A stretch of 64,000 nt of DNA from Acidobacteriota bacterium. Lineage in GTDB: Bacteria > Acidobacteriota > Thermoanaerobaculia > Gp7-AA8 > JAHWKK01. The position numbers and the translations under genes were made by a program. The stretch is from the NCBI GenBank assembly GCA_019347945.1, contig JAHWKK010000017.1, positions 1-64,000 on the forward strand. Direction: 5' to 3'. Below are positions 49,116-59,119 of the stretch, piece by piece. The notes under the pieces are model-generated. The model was not told where the DNA came from. It worked only from the letters and a program-made list of their open reading frames with translations, and made no database searches. Each line of letters begins with the position of its first letter. Position 1 is the stretch's first letter.

Positions 49116-50249
49116 CTATCCGACCCGGATGGCTTCGATCTCGTTGCGGCGATTGGAGATGAACTCGAAGATCTCGTTTTTCCGTTCGGCAGGAAGGTGC
49201 TGGGAGACCTCGAACAGCTGCATGGACAACAGGTTGTTGAGTCCCTCGTCGAGCACGACTTTCCTTTCGCTGCCGGGCAGCTCGGAAATATTCGCCACGA
49301 GCATGTTCTCGTCGAAGCGTCCGGATTCGCCAAACCGGACTCCTTCCCAGACGGCATCGCGCTCGGTCTCGCTCAGGGCGGCTGCAAAGACGGTTCTCGC
49401 ACGAGCATCACCGACCGCGTCGAGCAGCGCACTGTAGAGATGCTCGAACATGTCGTTGTACACGGATATGACTCGGAGCAGGTCGGGGGAGTCCTCGACG
49501 TCGAGAAACACGGGCTGGAACTGTTTCTGCTCGACTTCGTCGATCAGATGGGCAGTGAGCATCTGGTAGAGAAGCTGCCGGACCTCGAACTCGGTCATCT
49601 TCGACGCGATCCTGACGAGATCCCGGACGGATTTCTCGCCGTCGATCTGATCCCAGAGCTTCTGCTCCTTCTCGCCGAGATCGAGATCCTCGAGATTGAT
49701 CTCGGCGCCCTGAACCTTGTCGAAAACCATTTTGTCGCTGGTGATGCGCTCGTCGATTCGTCCCGATTCGTCCAGTCGCCGGATCCCTTCCATGATGAGC
49801 ATCGAGGTGTTGATCTGGAGCGTGATCTTCTCCTGAAGCTCCTGCTCGCTCTGGAGAAAGCGAAAACGCCCTCTGTCCCACGTGAAGAGCGAGAAGATGA
49901 TCTCGAGCACCTGCGCCTTGACCCCCCACCAGAGATCCTTGGGAGAGAGGTAGCCGAGCTGGACGAGCACTCTCCCGTGTTTGACGCCCGGTTCCATCAT
50001 CTCGCAGGACTTCTCGTACTGCTCCTGGGTGATTTTTCCGTTCCTGAGCAGAAACTCTCCGAGCGAATGGTCCGAGCTGTTGGAGTTGGCGAAGACGACC
50101 TCGCCGTCCTTCCAGAAGAGGGTGCGGTGCTCTGCATCGCGCTCCACGTGCAGGTCCCCCGACTTCCTGGTCATCGAGATGAAAGTGAGGACGTCCGGAA
50201 AATCGATACCCGAAAGATCGCCTTCGAAGATCGTAGCCGTCTCGCTCAT
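49116..50249 (-). CDS. DUF4388 domain-containing protein
   Basis: A 377-aa cytoplasmic protein. Residues about 5-100 match the DUF4388 (PATAN) pattern: FEGDLSGIDFPDVLTFISMTRKSGDLHVERDAEHRTLFWKDGEVVFANS split over strands and helices; the next part resembles a second such segment (LGEFLLRNGKITQEQYEKSCEMM, VLVQLGYLSPKDLWWGVKAQVLEIIFSLFTW). Relatives accompany two-component systems, gliding motility or type IV pilus regulation. The C-terminal half (about 180-377) is unassigned and helical. Starts four bases after the cysteine desulfurase stop. Confidence 0.82.
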   Translation of the reverse strand: MSETATIFEGDLSGIDFPDVLTFISMTRKSGDLHVERDAEHRTLFWKDGEVVFANSNSSDHSLGEFLLRNGKITQEQYEKSCEMMEPGVKHGRVLVQLGYLSPKDLWWGVKAQVLEIIFSLFTWDRGRFRFLQSEQELQEKITLQINTSMLIMEGIRRLDESGRIDERITSDKMVFDKVQGAEINLEDLDLGEKEQKLWDQIDGEKSVRDLVRIASKMTEFEVRQLLYQMLTAHLIDEVEQKQFQPVFLDVEDSPDLLRVISVYNDMFEHLYSALLDAVGDARARTVFAAALSETERDAVWEGVRFGESGRFDENMLVANISELPGSERKVVLDEGLNNLLSMQLFEVSQHLPAERKNEIFEFISNRRNEIEAIRVG

Positions 50250-50253
50250 CCGG

Positions 50254-51402
50254 TCACGTCCCTATTCTCGACTCCCGTGTGGAATCGGCGAGCCGGACAG
50301 CTGCCTCGACGAAGCTGGAAATTTCTTCCCGCGTCGTGAACTGGCAGAGAGAAATTCGGATCGTGCTCTTCGCATCCCTCTCTGATAGTCCCATGGCTGT
50401 CAAGACGTGACTCGCCTCGACCTTTCCCGACGAGCATGCGGAGCCGGCCGACACGGCGAAGCCTTCGATGTCGAGCCCGATGATCAGAGACTCGGAGTCG
50501 CAGCCGCCGAACGTCACGGAGCTGGTATTCGGCAGACGCTGCGCGGCGGCACCGCGGATGACGACGTCCTCGACACGATCGACAAGACCGTGCTCCATCT
50601 CATCGCGGATGGCGGCGACCTCGTTCATTCGCGCGAGCCCCTCTCTCGCGAGCTCCGCCGCGACTCCGAGGGCGCTGGCGAGCGGCGGGTTTTCGGTCCC
50701 GGCCCGTCGGCGGCGCTCCTGCGAGCCTCCGAGAATGTGCGGATGGAGCGTGACGCCCTTCCGGAGCCAGAGAGCCCCGATTCCCTTCGGTCCATGAAAC
50801 TTGTGCCCGGACAGCGAGACGGAATCGACACCGAGAGCCCTGACGTTGACCGGAATTTTGCCGATCGCCTGGACGGCGTCGCAGTGGATATGGACGTTCC
50901 TTTCGCGGCAGGCTTCGGCGACTGCCGCGACCGGCTGGATTACACCGGTCTCGTTGTTGGCGAGCATCATTGCCAGGAGCCGGGTCTCGGGCCGGATGGC
51001 GGCCACGACGTCTTCCGCTCTGACGACGCCATCGGGTTGCGGGTCCACCCTGGTGACGGGCCAGCCTCGCCGTTCGAGATCCTGAATGACCGAGCGGACC
51101 GAGGGATGCTCGATGCTGGTGGTTACGATGTGGAAACGATCACTTTCGTCTAGTAGGGTCCGACCGAAAATAGCAGCATTGTTGGATTCGGTGCCGCCGC
51201 TGGTGAAGATGATCTCGGACGGTTCCCCTTCCAGCAGCTCGGCGACCCCGGCACGGGCTTCCTCGAGGCACTGCCGGGCTTTGCGTCCGGTGTAGTGAAC
51301 GCTCGACGGATTGCCCCACGTCGACTCGAGCGCGGAGGTCAGCGTTTCGAGGACACGGGGATGAATTCGGGTCGTCGCATTATTATCGAGAAAGATGGTC
51401 AT
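50254..51402 (-). CDS. nifS: Cysteine desulfurase (NifS/IscS-like)
   Basis: A 382-aa PLP enzyme that frees sulfur from cysteine as an enzyme persulfide for Fe-S clusters and thiolated cofactors. Seen: IFLDNNATTRIHPRVLE, FTSGGTESNNAAI, MLANNETGVIQPV, the PLP lysine in SVSLSGHKFHGPKGIGALW, and the catalytic Cys loop SAGSACSSGKVEASHVL. The start at 51402 gives the usual N-terminus MTIFLDNNATT; the longer frame is a shadow of the divergent VWA gene. No scaffold gene (iscU, nifU) is adjacent. Its start overlaps that of the divergent VWA gene. Confidence 0.93.
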   Translation of the reverse strand: MTIFLDNNATTRIHPRVLETLTSALESTWGNPSSVHYTGRKARQCLEEARAGVAELLEGEPSEIIFTSGGTESNNAAIFGRTLLDESDRFHIVTTSIEHPSVRSVIQDLERRGWPVTRVDPQPDGVVRAEDVVAAIRPETRLLAMMLANNETGVIQPVAAVAEACRERNVHIHCDAVQAIGKIPVNVRALGVDSVSLSGHKFHGPKGIGALWLRKGVTLHPHILGGSQERRRRAGTENPPLASALGVAAELAREGLARMNEVAAIRDEMEHGLVDRVEDVVIRGAAAQRLPNTSSVTFGGCDSESLIIGLDIEGFAVSAGSACSSGKVEASHVLTAMGLSERDAKSTIRISLCQFTTREEISSFVEAAVRLADSTRESRIGT

Positions 51403-54001
51403 CGGTATCAGACGCTCGGCAGTAACCGGTTTGCAGAATTGCGCACTCGTGGCTGCCCTCTGTCTGGGCGTTGTTTCCAGTGCGACGATCGCTCCCCGGA
51501 GCTTTGGCGACGAGTCTAATTTAAAGCAAAAGACCGGTCCGCAGAAATCCCCCCCTCCTCTGCTTTCCCGCTCCGAGCGCCGCGAAAAACTGCGCCTCCT
51601 TCCGGAAAAGTACCACCAGTGGCTCGAGGAGGTGGAACCGATCATCACGCCCGCCGAAACCGATTCCTTTCTGCGGCTCGAATCGGATGCTCAGCGCGAC
51701 TTTTTCATCGAGCAGTTCTGGATCGTCAGGGATACTGATCCGCGCACGGCTCGAAACGAGTACGAAGAGGAGTACCGGGAGCTTCTGCAGGAGGCCCGCA
51801 ACAAGTTTCGCTATCTGAGCTCCGACAGGGCGAAGATTCTTCTCATTCACGGCCGGCCGGCGGAGACGTGGGACATCCGGACCTGTGATCAGTACTTTCA
51901 GCCGCTCGACATCTGGTACTACCCCTATCTGGAGGGAATCGGATCGGACGTTCTGTTTCTCTTCTACCTTCCCCGTATTGGTGCCGACTACCGGCTCTGG
52001 ATTCCGATGTTCGGCCGCGACGGTATCGAGGATCTCAGGTCGCTGGACGCGGAGCACAGGGGAGGGGGAGGGATGGGCTTCCAGCGGGAGTGCACGAAGG
52101 GAGAGATCATCGGTGCCGCGATTGGCTGGGGGCTGTCGAACCGCGACAGATTCACGCGAATCTACGAACGTCCGGAGGTTGATGTCGAGTTCGCCGCCCG
52201 AACGATGCGGACGACGGTCATTCTCAATCCGGATGCCCCGGTCATCGATTCGAAGCTCGAGGTCGAGTATCCGGCACGCCGCGGTACGCGGACCGTCGTG
52301 AGGCTGAACACCGACATCGACCCGGCAGAGGTGAACGTCAAGGATCTCGGCGGGAATCTCTTCTACAACATCGATCTGATCGGTGAAGTGATCCGGAACG
52401 GGAGTCTCTTCGAGAACTTCCGGTACCGCTTCGACTATCCGGGGGAGGGAGTCACCTCGCGGATTCCACTTTCCGTCGAGCGTTTCCTCCGCCCGGGAAC
52501 GTATACGGTGCGGCTGAAGATCATCGACATCAACGGCGCCGGGGAGGGGATTCTCGAGAGCGTACTCGAAGTCCCGGAAGTCAAAGAGGAAGTGGAGCTG
52601 ACGGCCGATCAGCGGACGTCGGCGCGGAAGCTGGACGAGTTGCAGCAACAGCTGTTCTCCGGAGATGTCTCCCTTCGGATCCTTCCGCCGGCCGAAGGGA
52701 TTCTGACGGGGCTGCTGCAGATCGATACGGTGGTGTCGGGAGAGGGGGTCGATCACGTCGAGTTCTGGCTCGATGACCGGAAGATCATGACCAAGCGTGA
52801 GCCCCCCTATACGCTCGAGCTCGACCTCGGTCCCGTCCCGCTGACACGCCGGCTGAAGGTCGTCGGGTACGACGCGAACGACGATCTTCTCGCCGGGGAC
52901 GAGATCGTGCTCAATACTGGTATCGACCCGTATCGCGTGCATATCGAGTCGCCGCGGATCACCGCCAGAGCCTCGGGGCCGATGCGGATGGCGGTCGACG
53001 TCGAGACGCCGCGGGGACGGTCGGTCGCCTCGGTCGAGCTCTATGTGAACGAGGACCGGGTGGCGACGCTCTACGACCGCCCTTTCGTGCACATAGTCGA
53101 CGTTCCCGAAGGTCTCGACTTCGGCTATCTCCGCGCAGTCGCCACGCTCGACGGCGAGAATGGAGAGAAAGCCGAGGATGTGGTCTTTCTCAATCGCCCG
53201 CCGAACCTGACCGAGATCGAAGTCCATCTGGTCGAGCTCCCGGCGACGGTTCTCCGAAACGGCCGGCCGGTCCACGATCTGCCGAAGGAGGCGTTCACGA
53301 TCTACGACGAGGGTTCTCCCGTCGAGATCGCGAAGTTCGAGTACGTCCGTGACGTTCCCCTCTCGATCGGACTCGCAGTCGACTCCTCCGCCTCGATGGA
53401 GGCTCGAATGAACGAGACGCAGACCGCGGCCGCCGGGTTCCTCCGGAGCGTGCTCCGCCCCCGGGACCGAGCATTCCTCATCGGGTTCTCCAGCGTTCCC
53501 GTCATAGCCACCAACTTCACCTCCGATCAGCAGGAGCTCGCGCGGAGTCTCGCCTCGCTGAGGGCGGAAGGCCCGACCGCGCTGCACGACGCGATCGTCT
53601 ACGCGCTCTACTCGTTCCAGGGAGTCGGCGGTCAGAAGGCGCTGGTCGTGCTGTCGGATGGCGCCGACACTTCCTCGAAGTTCGAGTACTCGCAGATGCT
53701 CGAGTACGCACGTCGCTCGGCGCTCCCGGTTTACGTGATCGGGATCGGGATTCCGATTGTCGAACGGGATTCGAGGGGGAAGCTCGCGGGTCTGGCTTCG
53801 GCCACCGGCGGTCGTGCATGGTTCATCGAGGGAATCGAGGAGATCGAATCGATCTACCGCGACATCGAGCGCGAGCTCCGATCGCAGTACATTCTCGGAT
53901 TCTATCCACCTGACGAGGTCGAGTCGGGGGGTCCGTGGCGTCACGTGAGGGTTGCGGTCGAGGGAGGCGAGGTCAGGTCGATCCAGGGATACTACCCATG
54001 A
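51395..54001 (+). CDS. Secreted GWxTD/VWFA-related acidobacterial protein, copy 1
   Basis: An 868-aa exported protein. Signal peptide about 12-30 (NCALVAALCLGVVSSA); GWxTD-like domain about 60-180 (WLEEVEPIITPAETDSFLRL, YLSSDRAKILLIHGRP); beta-sandwich region about 260-620 including VEFWLDDRKIMTKREPPYT; von Willebrand A domain from about 655 with MIDAS motifs DSSAS, a Thr in GPTALHDAI, and Asp in LSDGADTSS. It ends IQGYYP like the two following genes. VWFA-related acidobacterial proteins are abundant in this phylum but of unknown role; a metal-dependent adhesion surface is likely. Its start overlaps the divergent nifS start by eight bases; a TTG at 51431 is an alternative. Confidence 0.85.
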   Translation: MVIGIRRSAVTGLQNCALVAALCLGVVSSATIAPRSFGDESNLKQKTGPQKSPPPLLSRSERREKLRLLPEKYHQWLEEVEPIITPAETDSFLRLESDAQRDFFIEQFWIVRDTDPRTARNEYEEEYRELLQEARNKFRYLSSDRAKILLIHGRPAETWDIRTCDQYFQPLDIWYYPYLEGIGSDVLFLFYLPRIGADYRLWIPMFGRDGIEDLRSLDAEHRGGGGMGFQRECTKGEIIGAAIGWGLSNRDRFTRIYERPEVDVEFAARTMRTTVILNPDAPVIDSKLEVEYPARRGTRTVVRLNTDIDPAEVNVKDLGGNLFYNIDLIGEVIRNGSLFENFRYRFDYPGEGVTSRIPLSVERFLRPGTYTVRLKIIDINGAGEGILESVLEVPEVKEEVELTADQRTSARKLDELQQQLFSGDVSLRILPPAEGILTGLLQIDTVVSGEGVDHVEFWLDDRKIMTKREPPYTLELDLGPVPLTRRLKVVGYDANDDLLAGDEIVLNTGIDPYRVHIESPRITARASGPMRMAVDVETPRGRSVASVELYVNEDRVATLYDRPFVHIVDVPEGLDFGYLRAVATLDGENGEKAEDVVFLNRPPNLTEIEVHLVELPATVLRNGRPVHDLPKEAFTIYDEGSPVEIAKFEYVRDVPLSIGLAVDSSASMEARMNETQTAAAGFLRSVLRPRDRAFLIGFSSVPVIATNFTSDQQELARSLASLRAEGPTALHDAIVYALYSFQGVGGQKALVVLSDGADTSSKFEYSQMLEYARRSALPVYVIGIGIPIVERDSRGKLAGLASATGGRAWFIEGIEEIESIYRDIERELRSQYILGFYPPDEVESGGPWRHVRVAVEGGEVRSIQGYYP

Positions 54002-56523
54002 TGAAGGGCCTCACGGCCATGATCGTCGTCGCGGCTTTGTCGGTCCCGCTGGCTGCCAACCAGAAGGACCCGCAAAGCGAGAAGATCTCTTCGATCGACT
54101 CAGCGGGTGTAAAGAAGTTGACCAGCAGCGAACGAGCCGCGGCGATCGCGTCCCTCTCTCCGGCGCGTGTCGAAGAGTGGAAGACGCTGATGCCCATTCT
54201 CACGCCGGCCGAACAGGATGAGTTTCTCGGACTCGACGAGTCGGAGCGCGATGGATGGATTCTGCGGCTTCACACCCGGTGGGGCGTTTCGGCGAAGGAG
54301 CTCTCGAGCCGGCATCGTCGGGCGGAGTCGGTTCTCGGGAATCTCTCCGAAGCCGGTGACGCGGCAACACTCGCGCTTCTCGTAGGGCTTCCCGACCGGC
54401 GAACGACTCTGAACTGTCCTCCGTGGACGATCCCGATGGAGGTGTGGGAGTGGACCGACCGGAAAACGGCTGTGCTCCTCTACCTCACACCGGAGGGGCC
54501 GACCGCCTATCTGCCGGCCGAAGAAAAGCGGGGACGGTACGGAGCGGATGACCCGCGCGCCGTCCTGCTGACGGAGAAGGGAAAGAGTCTCGGAGCTCTC
54601 CCCGTTTTCGACGGGATTCCGGGAGAGCCCGCCGTCATCGAAAAGTGCGGAGGGGCGGCCGCCGTCACGCGAGCGCTCGCTGCCGACCTCGAGCTCGTCG
54701 AAGATCTTCTCGAACGTCGCACTGTCGAACGGAAAAGTGCCGCGAGCCGGGTCTCGGCCGAAGAGGCCGCGGGAACACCGATCCCCGCCTCGGTCACATT
54801 TCCCGGAAAGGTCGGATCGCGAACCAGCGTCGAGTGGACACTCGAGATTCCGACCGATCTCCTCGCGCATGATGACGAAGATGCCGCCGAAGGATACGGC
54901 ATCGAAGTCGCCGGAACGGTTGCGCGGCGCGGCGAACCGGTCGACCGGTTTCGCTACGTCTACAGCTTCGACTCGGGGGATTCGATCCGGGCGAGCTTCG
55001 AGCGGATTCTCGCGCCCGACGACTACACGTACCAGATCGTGGCGAAAGAAAAGCGAGGGACGACGTTCGTCAGCCGGGGGGAAATTGAAGTGCCTTACAT
55101 CCCCGCGGCGGAGTCTCCGGAGTCCGGGTGGGATGGCCAGCGGAACGAGCGGATCGCGCTGTACGAGCAGGAGTATCGCGCCGGCGAGACGCGTGTGCGA
55201 CTGATACCACCGGGTCCGGGCTTTCTCTACGGACCGCAGAGATTCGATACCGTCGTCACGGGAGACGACGTCGCCGCCGTCGAGTTCGAGCTCGATGGAA
55301 AGAAGGTCATGACCCGTCGCCAGCCCCCGTACACGCTCGAGCTCAACCTCGGTGAGCTGCCGACGATGCGCAAGGTTCGCGTCACGGCCCGGGACGACTC
55401 CGGCCGGATCATCGCGGGTGACGAGATCGTGCTGAATGCCGGGATGGTTCCGTTCCGTGTGCACATCGTTTCGCCGCGTATTTCCGAGGGTGTCACTGGC
55501 GAGGTGCGCGCGGAAGTCGAGGTGGACGTTCCGCAGGGAAAGCGGCTCGACCGGGTCGAGCTCTACCTGAACGACCGGCACATCGCCTCCGGTTTCGAGC
55601 CGACTTTCGTTCAGAAGGTCGACCTGGGACCGGTACCGAAGATCGGGTATCTCCGGGCGAAAGCCGTCCTCGCTGACGACTTCGGGACCGCGGCCGAGGA
55701 CGTCGTTTTCCTGAACGCGCCCCATCTGATCGAGCAGGTCGACGTCCGGCTCGTCCAGCTTCCCGTCACGGTCGTCCGATCGGGACGTCTCGTGCGCGAC
55801 CTCACGGTCGACGATTTTTCGCTTCGGGAGGAAGGCTCTCCGCGATCGATCGAGAAATTCGAATACGTTCGTGACCTTCCTCTCTCCATCGGTCTCGCCG
55901 TCGACATCTCGGGATCGATGACTACCCGGATGAATGACGTGCTGAGAGTGGCGGCCTCATTTCTCGACCGGGTGCTCGAGCGCGGAGACAAGGCCTTCGT
56001 CGTTGCGTTCAACGATCGGGTGGAAGTGACTCAGCCGTGGACCGAGAACCTCGCCGGTCTGAACGCCGGCCTGTCGACGCTGAAAGCCGAGGACATGACT
56101 GCGCTCTACGACGCGCTGGTCGCCTCGCTCTACAACTTCCAGGGACTCGAAGGACAGAAGGCTCTCATCCTCCTGACCGATGGAGCGGATACCGCCTCCT
56201 ACTTTTCGCTCGAACAGACCCTCGAGTTCGCACGCCGTATCCGGGTTCCCGTATACGTGATCGCGGTCGGGTTCGACCCGCGGGACCACAAGGTACGATC
56301 AGTCGTCAAGCGGATCTCACGAGAGACCGGAGGGGATTCGTGGTTCATCAAGGAGGTCGGCGACCTCTCCGACATCTACGACAAGATCGAAGAGGAGCTT
56401 CGCAGCCAGTACGTCCTCGGGTTTTATCCGAGCGAGGAAGCGATCAATGACGGCGGATTCCGGCGAGTCGAAGTGAAAGCGAGCGAGGGGAAGGCGCGGA
56501 CGGTCGCCGGATACTATCCGTGA
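53998..56523 (+). CDS. Secreted VWFA-related acidobacterial protein, copy 2 (degenerate GWxTD region)
   Basis: An 841-aa paralogue. Signal peptide about 3-20 (LTAMIVVAALSVPLAA). The N-terminal region (about 45-180) keeps LMPILTPAEQDEFLGLDESERDG but lacks most of the RDxDP-type and SSDRAKI segments seen in copies 1 and 3, so the GWxTD domain looks degenerate. The middle region has VEFELDGKKVMTRRQPPYTL, and VWA begins near 634 with MIDAS DISGS, then MTALYDALVASLY and LTDGADTAS. Ends VAGYYP. The start overlaps the copy 1 stop (ATGA). Confidence 0.83.
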   Translation: MMKGLTAMIVVAALSVPLAANQKDPQSEKISSIDSAGVKKLTSSERAAAIASLSPARVEEWKTLMPILTPAEQDEFLGLDESERDGWILRLHTRWGVSAKELSSRHRRAESVLGNLSEAGDAATLALLVGLPDRRTTLNCPPWTIPMEVWEWTDRKTAVLLYLTPEGPTAYLPAEEKRGRYGADDPRAVLLTEKGKSLGALPVFDGIPGEPAVIEKCGGAAAVTRALAADLELVEDLLERRTVERKSAASRVSAEEAAGTPIPASVTFPGKVGSRTSVEWTLEIPTDLLAHDDEDAAEGYGIEVAGTVARRGEPVDRFRYVYSFDSGDSIRASFERILAPDDYTYQIVAKEKRGTTFVSRGEIEVPYIPAAESPESGWDGQRNERIALYEQEYRAGETRVRLIPPGPGFLYGPQRFDTVVTGDDVAAVEFELDGKKVMTRRQPPYTLELNLGELPTMRKVRVTARDDSGRIIAGDEIVLNAGMVPFRVHIVSPRISEGVTGEVRAEVEVDVPQGKRLDRVELYLNDRHIASGFEPTFVQKVDLGPVPKIGYLRAKAVLADDFGTAAEDVVFLNAPHLIEQVDVRLVQLPVTVVRSGRLVRDLTVDDFSLREEGSPRSIEKFEYVRDLPLSIGLAVDISGSMTTRMNDVLRVAASFLDRVLERGDKAFVVAFNDRVEVTQPWTENLAGLNAGLSTLKAEDMTALYDALVASLYNFQGLEGQKALILLTDGADTASYFSLEQTLEFARRIRVPVYVIAVGFDPRDHKVRSVVKRISRETGGDSWFIKEVGDLSDIYDKIEEELRSQYVLGFYPSEEAINDGGFRRVEVKASEGKARTVAGYYP

Positions 56524-56596
56524 GCAGCGCGCGCGATGAAGCTCGACAGTTCCCGCTCCGGAAGTTTGAAGCGCCGGGCGGACGTTGGGATCGGCA

Positions 56597-59119
56597 GTGA
56601 GGTCGAATCGATTTTCACGATCCGCTCCTGCAGCGATGGCGCTCGCGCTGGCGGTCTTGCTCGTCGCGACTGCACTGCCGGCGTCGGCCGCGACCCCGGA
56701 CGAGCTTCCCGAGCTCAGCCGGAAAGAGCGTCGCGAGAGACTCGACGCTCTCTCCGAGGAGTACCGACAGTTTCTCGAGGACGTCAACCCCATCATCACG
56801 AGGAGAGAGCGGGACCTCTTTCTGCTGCTCGAATCCGACGGCCAGCGGGATCTTTTCATCGACGAGTTCTGGCGGCGTCGGGATATAGAAGGGCTCACTC
56901 CCGGAACCTATAGGGACCGGTACTACGCGCGTCTGGCGGTGGTCGAGCAGCGTTTCCGGCACGTCGACACCGACCGGGCTCGGATTTATCTGATCCGTGG
57001 CGAGCCGGCGGCGATTCACGAGATCGAGACCTGTAGATATCTGCGCCCGATCCACGTCTGGGAGTATCACGACTCGCTCACGGACGACCTGCTCGTCTTT
57101 CTCGGATGGCCCGGGGACTTCCGGCTCTGGCACGCCATGGGGCAGGAGGACGAGGCACTCCTGCAGTTACTCAGCCCCGAAGGGGAGAGGGAAGGTGTCC
57201 GAAAAGTTTTCTACGCTCACCAGAACGGGTTGTTCACCGATCCGCCTCTGGTGACCCGATGCATTGGCGGCGACGTTCTCCTCTCGGCGATCGGGCAGAC
57301 TCGAATGAGCGGCCACACGATCTTCAGGAACTTTCAGCCGGACCCGATCGACGAGGACTCGATCGATCGCCTGCTGAAGGGAATGGTGATCGAGCCGAAG
57401 GGAGGGTCGGCGTTCGAGGTCGATGTCGATGTCGACTTTCCGGGTCGTCGCGGAACGCGGACGATCGTGCGAATCGAGACGACGGTCCCGGCGAGCGCCT
57501 TTTCTCCTCTCCGGGTCGGAGAGCGTGATTTCAGACGGGCGAACGTGACAGGGGAGATCATGAAGGATGGGGATCTCTTCGACCGGTACGAGGCGCGTTT
57601 CGAGATCGAGGGGGAGTCCGATGAGCCGATGCGACTCGTGGTCGAGCGTCATCTCAGGCCGGGATTCTACGAATTGAGAACGAAGGTCGCCGATGCCGGA
57701 AGCGGCGGCGCCGGGATCTCGCGGAGCGCGATCGAGGTGCCCGAGGTTTCCGCGGAAGCGGGGCCCGGGAGCAACGTCGTCGAAGAGAGTGCCGCTCCGT
57801 ACATCCGGCTGGCTGGCGAGACGCGCGGGATTCTGACGGGGAACCAGGTATTCGAGGCTGTGACGACGCCGGAGGTCGCCAGCGTCGAGTTTTTCGTGGA
57901 CGGCGTCTCGCAGGGGACCAAGCGGGTGCGCCCGTTCGGTCTCGAGGTCGCGATCGGACCGGTCCCGCGACAGCGGACGGTGAAAGCGGTCGCGCGTGAT
58001 TCCGACGGCGAGATTCTCGGAATCGACGAGCTTCCCATCAACCTCGGGGTCGATCCTTTCCGAGTCCGGATCGCTTCGCCCCGCTACGGGAAGGATCTGG
58101 ACGGCAGGATCAGGGTCGAGGTCGAGACGACCGTTCCGAAAGCGCGAGAGCTGAGGGAGGTCGAGCTCTTCGTCGACGACGTGAGCGCCGGAGTCCTGAA
58201 AGAGGCCCCCTTCGTTTTTTACGCGGAGATCGATGGCCCCGGCATTCACATCCTGAAGGCGGTCGCGCGGGACACGGGAGAATCGACCACCGAAGACGTC
58301 GTGGTGCTGAATCCACCGCCGGGCGGAGTGCTCGCGATCGACGTTCGCTTCGTCGAGCTGATCGCCACGGTCACTCGGGCGGGAAGAGTCGAGACGGACC
58401 TCGATCGGGATGCCTTTCACGTCACCGAGGCGGGGAACGTAGTCGAGATCACGAAGTTCGAGAAGCTGACGAACCAGCCGCTCTCGGTGGGACTCGCCAT
58501 CGATACCTCGGCTTCGATGGAAGGGAAGATCGACCGGGTGCGCGACGCGGCGAGCCACTTTCTCGATTCGGTCCTGACGCCCGCGGACCGGGCATTCGTC
58601 GTGACGTTCGACCGGCAGGTGTGGAAGCCGGTCGACTGGACGAGCGACTCCCGATCGCTCGCGTGGGCGCTCGCAGCGATCCGGCCGGAATCGAAGACCG
58701 CGCTGCACGACGCGATCGTCGAGTCGCTCTACAACTTCCACGGGGTCGACGGACAGAAGGCTCTGATCCTCCTCTCGGACGGACGCGACAATGCGTCGAA
58801 GTTCGCTTGGGATCAGGCGCTCGAGTACTCGAGGAGATCGGCCGTTCCGATCTACGTGCTCGGCATCGGGATTCCGGTGACGCAACTGGATGTCCAGATG
58901 CGGCTCCGCTCGCTCGCGGAGGCAACCGGAGGCCGGGCGTGGTTTTTCGATGACCTCGGGCAGCTCAGCTCGATCTACGAAGAGATTCAGCGCGATCTTC
59001 GCTCCCAGTATCTGCTCGGCTTTTATCCCGAAGCGCCGGACGGCGACCGGGACTGGCGCCCCGTCGAGATCAGGGTCGACGGCGCAGAGGTCCGGGCGGC
59101 TGCCGGCTACTATCCGTGA
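56597..59119 (+). CDS. Secreted GWxTD/VWFA-related acidobacterial protein, copy 3
   Basis: An 840-aa paralogue of the two upstream genes. Signal peptide MALALAVLLVATALPASA begins about residue 14; GWxTD-like domain about 40-170 (FLEDVNPIITRRERDLFLLL, HVDTDRARIYLIRGEP); middle beta region with VEFFVDGVSQGTKRVRP; VWA from about 631 with DTSAS, KTALHDAIVESLY and LSDGRDNAS. Ends AAGYYP. I chose GTG 56597 because TTGGGA lies just upstream; TTG 56585 and ATG 56636 are alternatives. It follows copy 2 after about 70 bases and runs into a GAAGAGTGA repeat. Confidence 0.83.
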   Translation: MRSNRFSRSAPAAMALALAVLLVATALPASAATPDELPELSRKERRERLDALSEEYRQFLEDVNPIITRRERDLFLLLESDGQRDLFIDEFWRRRDIEGLTPGTYRDRYYARLAVVEQRFRHVDTDRARIYLIRGEPAAIHEIETCRYLRPIHVWEYHDSLTDDLLVFLGWPGDFRLWHAMGQEDEALLQLLSPEGEREGVRKVFYAHQNGLFTDPPLVTRCIGGDVLLSAIGQTRMSGHTIFRNFQPDPIDEDSIDRLLKGMVIEPKGGSAFEVDVDVDFPGRRGTRTIVRIETTVPASAFSPLRVGERDFRRANVTGEIMKDGDLFDRYEARFEIEGESDEPMRLVVERHLRPGFYELRTKVADAGSGGAGISRSAIEVPEVSAEAGPGSNVVEESAAPYIRLAGETRGILTGNQVFEAVTTPEVASVEFFVDGVSQGTKRVRPFGLEVAIGPVPRQRTVKAVARDSDGEILGIDELPINLGVDPFRVRIASPRYGKDLDGRIRVEVETTVPKARELREVELFVDDVSAGVLKEAPFVFYAEIDGPGIHILKAVARDTGESTTEDVVVLNPPPGGVLAIDVRFVELIATVTRAGRVETDLDRDAFHVTEAGNVVEITKFEKLTNQPLSVGLAIDTSASMEGKIDRVRDAASHFLDSVLTPADRAFVVTFDRQVWKPVDWTSDSRSLAWALAAIRPESKTALHDAIVESLYNFHGVDGQKALILLSDGRDNASKFAWDQALEYSRRSAVPIYVLGIGIPVTQLDVQMRLRSLAEATGGRAWFFDDLGQLSSIYEEIQRDLRSQYLLGFYPEAPDGDRDWRPVEIRVDGAEVRAAAGYYP

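Follow-up and report, generated by a model that had tools for sequence, protein, structure and literature searches.

A tandem triplet of GWxTD-VWA family proteins in a Thermoanaerobaculia genome and recurrent duplication at its NifS-linked site

Three adjacent genes in a 64,000-nt stretch of acidobacterial DNA (the window) encode large proteins that arose from one gene by head-to-tail duplication, and the middle one has lost most of its N-terminal GWxTD features while keeping its C-terminal VWA domain. This particular triplet is known from one genome, but it becomes a testable pattern across the class Thermoanaerobaculia: one gene at one site, at least six independent duplications, a slowly evolving first copy and a VWA end that is kept. 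The GWxTD and TIGR03436 families had already been named; new are the class-wide GWxTD-VWA fusion, its recurrent tandem expansion at a single site and a natural copy with an eroded GWxTD domain, and the A-B gene pair of other families is described here. No paper on GWxTD or TIGR03436 was found in the open-access full texts searched, which agrees with an earlier note on this DNA that called the family named yet uncharacterised. The genes and domains are located as follows.

49116..50249, minus strand, gene for a DUF4388 protein, kept as a neighbour in the sister family f2 only
50254..51402, minus strand, NifS/IscS-type gene (Aminotran_5), divergent from copy 1, class-conserved neighbour
51395..54001, plus strand, copy 1, 868 aa (ORF calls, Pfam/NCBIfam, model)
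51623..51922, plus strand, GWxTD domain (TIGR04514) of copy 1 (NCBIfam)
52667..53209, plus strand, two Ig-like domains (Big_7) of copy 1, residues 425-605 (Pfam Big_7; strands in the model)
53213..53998, plus strand, TIGR03436 hybrid and VWA domains of copy 1, ending in GYYP (NCBIfam)
near 53381-53395, plus strand, MIDAS residues D663/S665/S667 of copy 1, completed by T728 and D755
53998..56523, plus strand, copy 2, 841 aa from ATG 53998
55735..56517, plus strand, TIGR03436 hybrid and VWA domains of copy 2 (NCBIfam)
56585..59119, plus strand, copy 3, 844 aa from TTG 56585
56771..57070, plus strand, GWxTD domain (TIGR04514) of copy 3 (NCBIfam)
58331..59116, plus strand, TIGR03436 hybrid and VWA domains of copy 3 (NCBIfam)

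The three co-directional ORFs described in the earlier note were recovered on the plus strand with 868, 862 and 844 codons; the second figure is the longest frame, which has 841 codons from ATG 53998. For copy 3, GTG 56597 was judged by eye to be as good a start as TTG 56585. Aligned end to end, copy 1 shows 37% identity with copy 2 and 41% with copy 3. When copy 1 was searched against its own genome (3.72 Mb in 49 contigs), copy 2 was returned at E=4.5e-133 and copy 3 at E=5.4e-165, similarities that by these search statistics exceed chance by far, followed by weaker VWA proteins at other sites. The three are thus full-length paralogues, as expected from the proposed head-to-tail duplication. 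The coupled start codons that had been claimed are found at the first junction, where the ATG of copy 2 overlaps the stop of copy 1 (ATGA at 53998-54001), but not at the second, where about 61-73 nt separate the stop of copy 2 from the start of copy 3. Likewise, the supposedly shared signal peptide is shared in kind, all three copies having signal-peptide-like starts when assessed by eye, but the sequences differ (residues 1-56 are 16-19% identical). The start regions of copy 1 and of the NifS-type gene on the opposite strand overlap by 8 nt (51395-51402), so that the promoter of either would lie inside the coding sequence of the other, unless copy 1 starts further in.

Pfam and NCBIfam scans assigned all copies a C-terminal VWA_2/TIGR03436 domain preceded by Big_7 Ig-like domains. 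In overall layout, every copy has two Ig-like domains and, ahead of them, a beta-sandwich. TIGR03436 scored 161, 165 and 159 bits in copies 1, 2 and 3, above the curated cut-off of 81.25, and TIGR04514 scored 47.6 bits in copy 1 and 53.4 bits in copy 3 (curated cut-off 28). By these profile scores all three proteins belong to TIGR03436, and copies 1 and 3 also to TIGR04514. In copy 2 the NCBIfam scan gave no TIGR04514 match at E≤1. The Pfam scan reported PF20094 (GWxTD_dom) for copy 3 at 12.4 bits, below the gathering score of 26.9, and did not list it for either of the other copies. The literal GWxTD motif is absent from all three copies; copy 1 has RYLSSD and copy 3 RHVDTD instead. The same scans matched no anchor or surface-sorting domain in the copies. 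Among the 15 TIGR03436 matches of this genome, 10 of them above the cut-off, overlap with TIGR04514 occurs in copies 1 and 3 only.

The AlphaFold model of copy 1 (mean pLDDT 79.7, 22 aligned sequences) begins with a helical part followed by strands, continues with a beta-sandwich at about residues 288-393 and a helix, and ends with two Ig-like domains (426-600) and the hybrid and VWA domains (613-868). Its last strand (865-867) belongs to the GYYP that the earlier note had pointed out at each C-terminus. This ending is indeed present, but a special shared or sorting tag was ruled out: it is the ordinary end of TIGR03436, and the domain ends with GYYEP, GYYGE or GYFQP in other acidobacterial VWA proteins.

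The MIDAS (D663-x-S665-x-S667, T728 and D755 in copy 1 numbering) is complete in copies 1-3, in line with the MIDAS-containing VWA domain that had been ascribed to all of them, and its residues are invariant in 76 of 76 relatives. Among the 72 VWA positions whose residue is shared by 80% or more of these relatives, copies 1, 2 and 3 match 62, 61 and 60. In most paralogue pairs the VWA is the best-conserved domain, with identities of 45-52% in the window and 61-86% in f2. The VWA fold of the predicted structure is supported by Foldseek matches to the VWA of anthrax toxin receptor (TMt 0.74-0.75), integrin I domains (0.78) and BatB (0.69). Inter-alpha-inhibitor heavy chain 1 (ITIH1) was the top whole-chain match, with a poor superposition (rmsd about 26 Å; about 20-26 Å for whole-chain matches in general), and such matches were given no meaning outside the VWA and Ig-like parts. 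The likeness to ITIH1, BatB, integrins and the anthrax receptor is limited to the VWA fold with its MIDAS and does not amount to membership; the window proteins may work like a VWA receptor or adhesin.

The loss of most GWxTD features from the middle copy, claimed previously, was confirmed by counts as well as by the failing profile match: of 29 GWxTD-region positions that pass the same 80% threshold in the 76 relatives, copies 1, 2 and 3 match 27, 15 and 27. Copy 2 has the lowest ratio of N-domain to VWA identity of 79 sequences (0.53 vs a median of 0.72), and its N-domain identities average 0.22 vs 0.33 in 1727 pairs with similar VWA identity. Still present in copy 2 are the conserved cysteine pair (C164 and C233, copy 1 numbering) and the conserved P170 and W174. 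Its model has the same order of helices and strands as copy 1 at lower confidence (74.1), which gives weak support for a kept fold, because it was built on the same aligned relatives. From the full-length alignment and the VWA tree we infer that copy 2 descends from a GWxTD-bearing copy. The N-domain is also partly or fully missing in later copies of genomes G038 (family f7) and G113 (f15). The second copy of G113 (L190:9729-11582, 617 aa) is without the GWxTD part, its match starting at profile position 276, and keeps the VWA. Raw identities had suggested, as a general rule, that divergence between paralogues is concentrated in the GWxTD domain. After an orthologue control this was dropped as a rule and kept for copy 2: most paralogue pairs have an N/VWA distance ratio (1.4-2.3) near the orthologue medians (1.5-1.9), and the two copies (a and b) of genome G006 are the sole pair strongly apart (5.3). 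Copy 1, a single-copy f2 homologue and the GWxTD-eroded copy 2 provide natural constructs to probe the role of the GWxTD domain.

By the titles of the named loci, the closest relatives belong to Acidobacteriota, Thermoanaerobaculia. The full-length profile matched 133 of 149 Thermoanaerobaculia genomes at E≤1e-80. In a sample of 396 genomes of the phylum no full-length fusion was found outside the class, and the matches there begin at profile position 406 or later, corresponding to the Ig and VWA domains without the N-terminal part. Because the profile searches scored few candidates per genome, the confinement of the GWxTD-VWA fusion to the class is a strong tendency of the matches, not proof of absence. 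Matches to the N-domain profile also occur beyond the class. Four of these proteins, whose complete sequences were read, have about 700 aa, no VWA match and a TPR-like tail, assigned by reading the sequence, where the window copies have the VWA; several of the four contain the literal GWxTD motif. These tails are consistent with a GWxTD module joined to an exchangeable protein-binding end. Free-standing TIGR04514 members of the same genome, with about 480-500 aa, also lack a VWA, in contrast to the fused window proteins. With TIGR04514/PF20094 proteins, copies 1 and 3 share the helical N-domain followed by strands and an FW..RD-type signature. With TIGR03436 members, the window proteins share the C-terminal hybrid and VWA domains and the GYYP-like ending, but other acidobacterial members that were sampled are often much shorter, at about 300-600 aa.

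The divergent NifS-type gene adjoins the first copy in the window, in f2, at most f5-f13 loci and in f16-f18; it was not seen beside the locus in f3, f4 and f15. Among the neighbours tested it is the only one kept that widely. The DUF4388 gene also adjoins nearly all f2 loci, and neither it nor the other tested window neighbours are present at the f5-f13 and f16-f18 loci. By gene order, copy 1 occupies the position that the first (A) gene has throughout the class, and this site is class-conserved.

Copy number at this site varies. Most f2 genomes have one full-length copy, G004, G006 and G008 have two and G005 has three; f3 and f4 have one copy, f5-f9, f11 and f12 have pairs, and G090 (f13) has three copies. 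As the loci were picked from among the best matches, frequencies should not be read from these numbers. The partners of copy 1 are not obligatory, since most f2 genomes, f3 and f4 manage with a single copy. Conservation of the triplet order, which the earlier note had proposed to check, was not found in relatives; the copy number of sister genomes ranges from one to three, through duplications that took place separately. The order of the A-B pair is constant in f5-f9 and f11-f13, and the pair resembles the window in its architecture, head-to-tail arrangement and divergent NifS-type neighbour. It is old, because the pair families split in the whole-protein tree (79 rows) into an A group of first genes and a B clade of second genes. 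The three window copies group with f2, away from both (at 100 for the whole protein and 99 for the VWA alone). No later window copy fell into the B clade in either tree, and membership of copies 2 and 3 in the A or B clades was not supported. The trees thus place the origin of the window triplet in duplication within its own order, separate from the A-B pair. Within f2, the copies of G004/G006 and of G005/G008 come from duplications of their own. Copies 2 and 3 sit on long branches, and forcing the window copies to be monophyletic costs 7.5 log units (p-AU 0.059); as monophyly is neither shown nor firmly rejected, part of the window duplication could, on these trees, predate the split between f2 and the window's family f1, represented by one genome, with losses in f2.

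Six independent duplications are distinguished (window, g5, g6, f13, f15 and A/B), and in 6/6 the outgroup path is shortest for the NifS-proximal copy (one-sided sign test, 1/64); in f15, which showed no NifS gene, the copy transcribed first stood in for the NifS-proximal one. Judged by these path lengths, the NifS-proximal copy evolves slowest. Copy b of G006 (L034) joins copy b of G004 (L035) on the N-terminal half and the a copies on the VWA only. VWA gene conversion in this copy was not established (p-AU 0.09); fourfold sites are about 50-60% identical and there is no sharp block.

We tentatively favour, at somewhat less than an even chance, an ancestral exported envelope protein accompanied by two diverged, probably co-expressed partners that have retained VWA binding. 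Co-transcription of copies 1-3 is suggested by the common strand, the short gaps and the one start-stop overlap. Copy 1 would retain the ancestral role, and copies 2 and 3 would be specialised partners that still use a divalent metal, coordinated by the VWA MIDAS, to attach to a glycan or protein ligand or to one another. The pair of Ig-like domains would form a stalk, and the GWxTD module at the N-terminus would direct the copies to different partners or locations. The signal-peptide-like starts, the conserved cysteine pair, the Ig-like stalk and the MIDAS VWA argue for exported, metal-dependent binding proteins. That all copies preserve the VWA end points to a partner they have in common or to binding among themselves. 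The eroded N-terminal end of copy 2 points to another contact, and copy 2 may then be an accessory subunit for which the VWA end is required and the ancestral GWxTD contact dispensable. These data are also consistent with a multi-subunit assembly. It is doubtful, taken as a whole, that the site encodes a class-specific envelope machine in which several paralogous GWxTD-Ig-VWA subunits, ordered at the NifS-linked site, are joined by their VWA ends and further subunits arise again and again as the gene duplicates in tandem and its GWxTD module loosens.

Of the competing explanations, neutral or dosage retention appears unlikely but is the strongest. Redundant tandem copies would drift and the later ones be on their way out, forming no complex and gaining no new role, as the faster evolution of downstream copies in 6/6 duplications, the shortened f15 copy (617 aa) and the single full-length copy of most f2 genomes would suggest. 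Yet the window ORFs are all intact at 37-41% identity and retain 60-62 of the 72 conserved VWA positions, which requires long purifying selection, and the A-B pair has persisted in the same order in f5-f9 and f11-f13. Somewhat less probable is the adhesin diversification raised in the earlier note, with the copies as alternative surface adhesins duplicated to vary the ligand at the VWA tip. Family expansion is recurrent, and a MIDAS VWA carried by Ig-like stalks is reminiscent of adhesins at pilus tips and cell surfaces (the Foldseek matches include PilB and SiiE). However, ligand variety would be expected at the VWA/MIDAS end, which is the best-kept part; the MIDAS region is unchanged, the N-terminal domain varies most and the scans revealed no surface anchor. 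That the triplet is the ancient A-B pair plus one extra copy is very improbable, even though the two share their order with respect to NifS and the kind of asymmetry that sets the first copy apart from those after it, because all three copies group with f2 and not with A or B.

Several minor observations concern GWxTD genes elsewhere. No Oar-like outer-membrane barrel gene was present at the fused GWxTD-VWA loci tested; such a gene lies directly upstream of GWxTD genes, or within a few kb of them, at L111:3713-7965, L255:2-4611 and many of L258-L273. Outside the class, the GWxTD proteins of about 700 aa often stand beside a GWxTD gene of about 310-360 aa (L253-L256, L258-L276), which is another tandem. 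In f16-f18 (L194, L195, L191-L193, L208), the one GWxTD-VWA protein has its GWxTD-like module repeated at the N-terminus, in two or three units, with three in the 1517-aa open frame of L194; these families duplicate the GWxTD module inside the gene, whereas the other families duplicate the gene itself.
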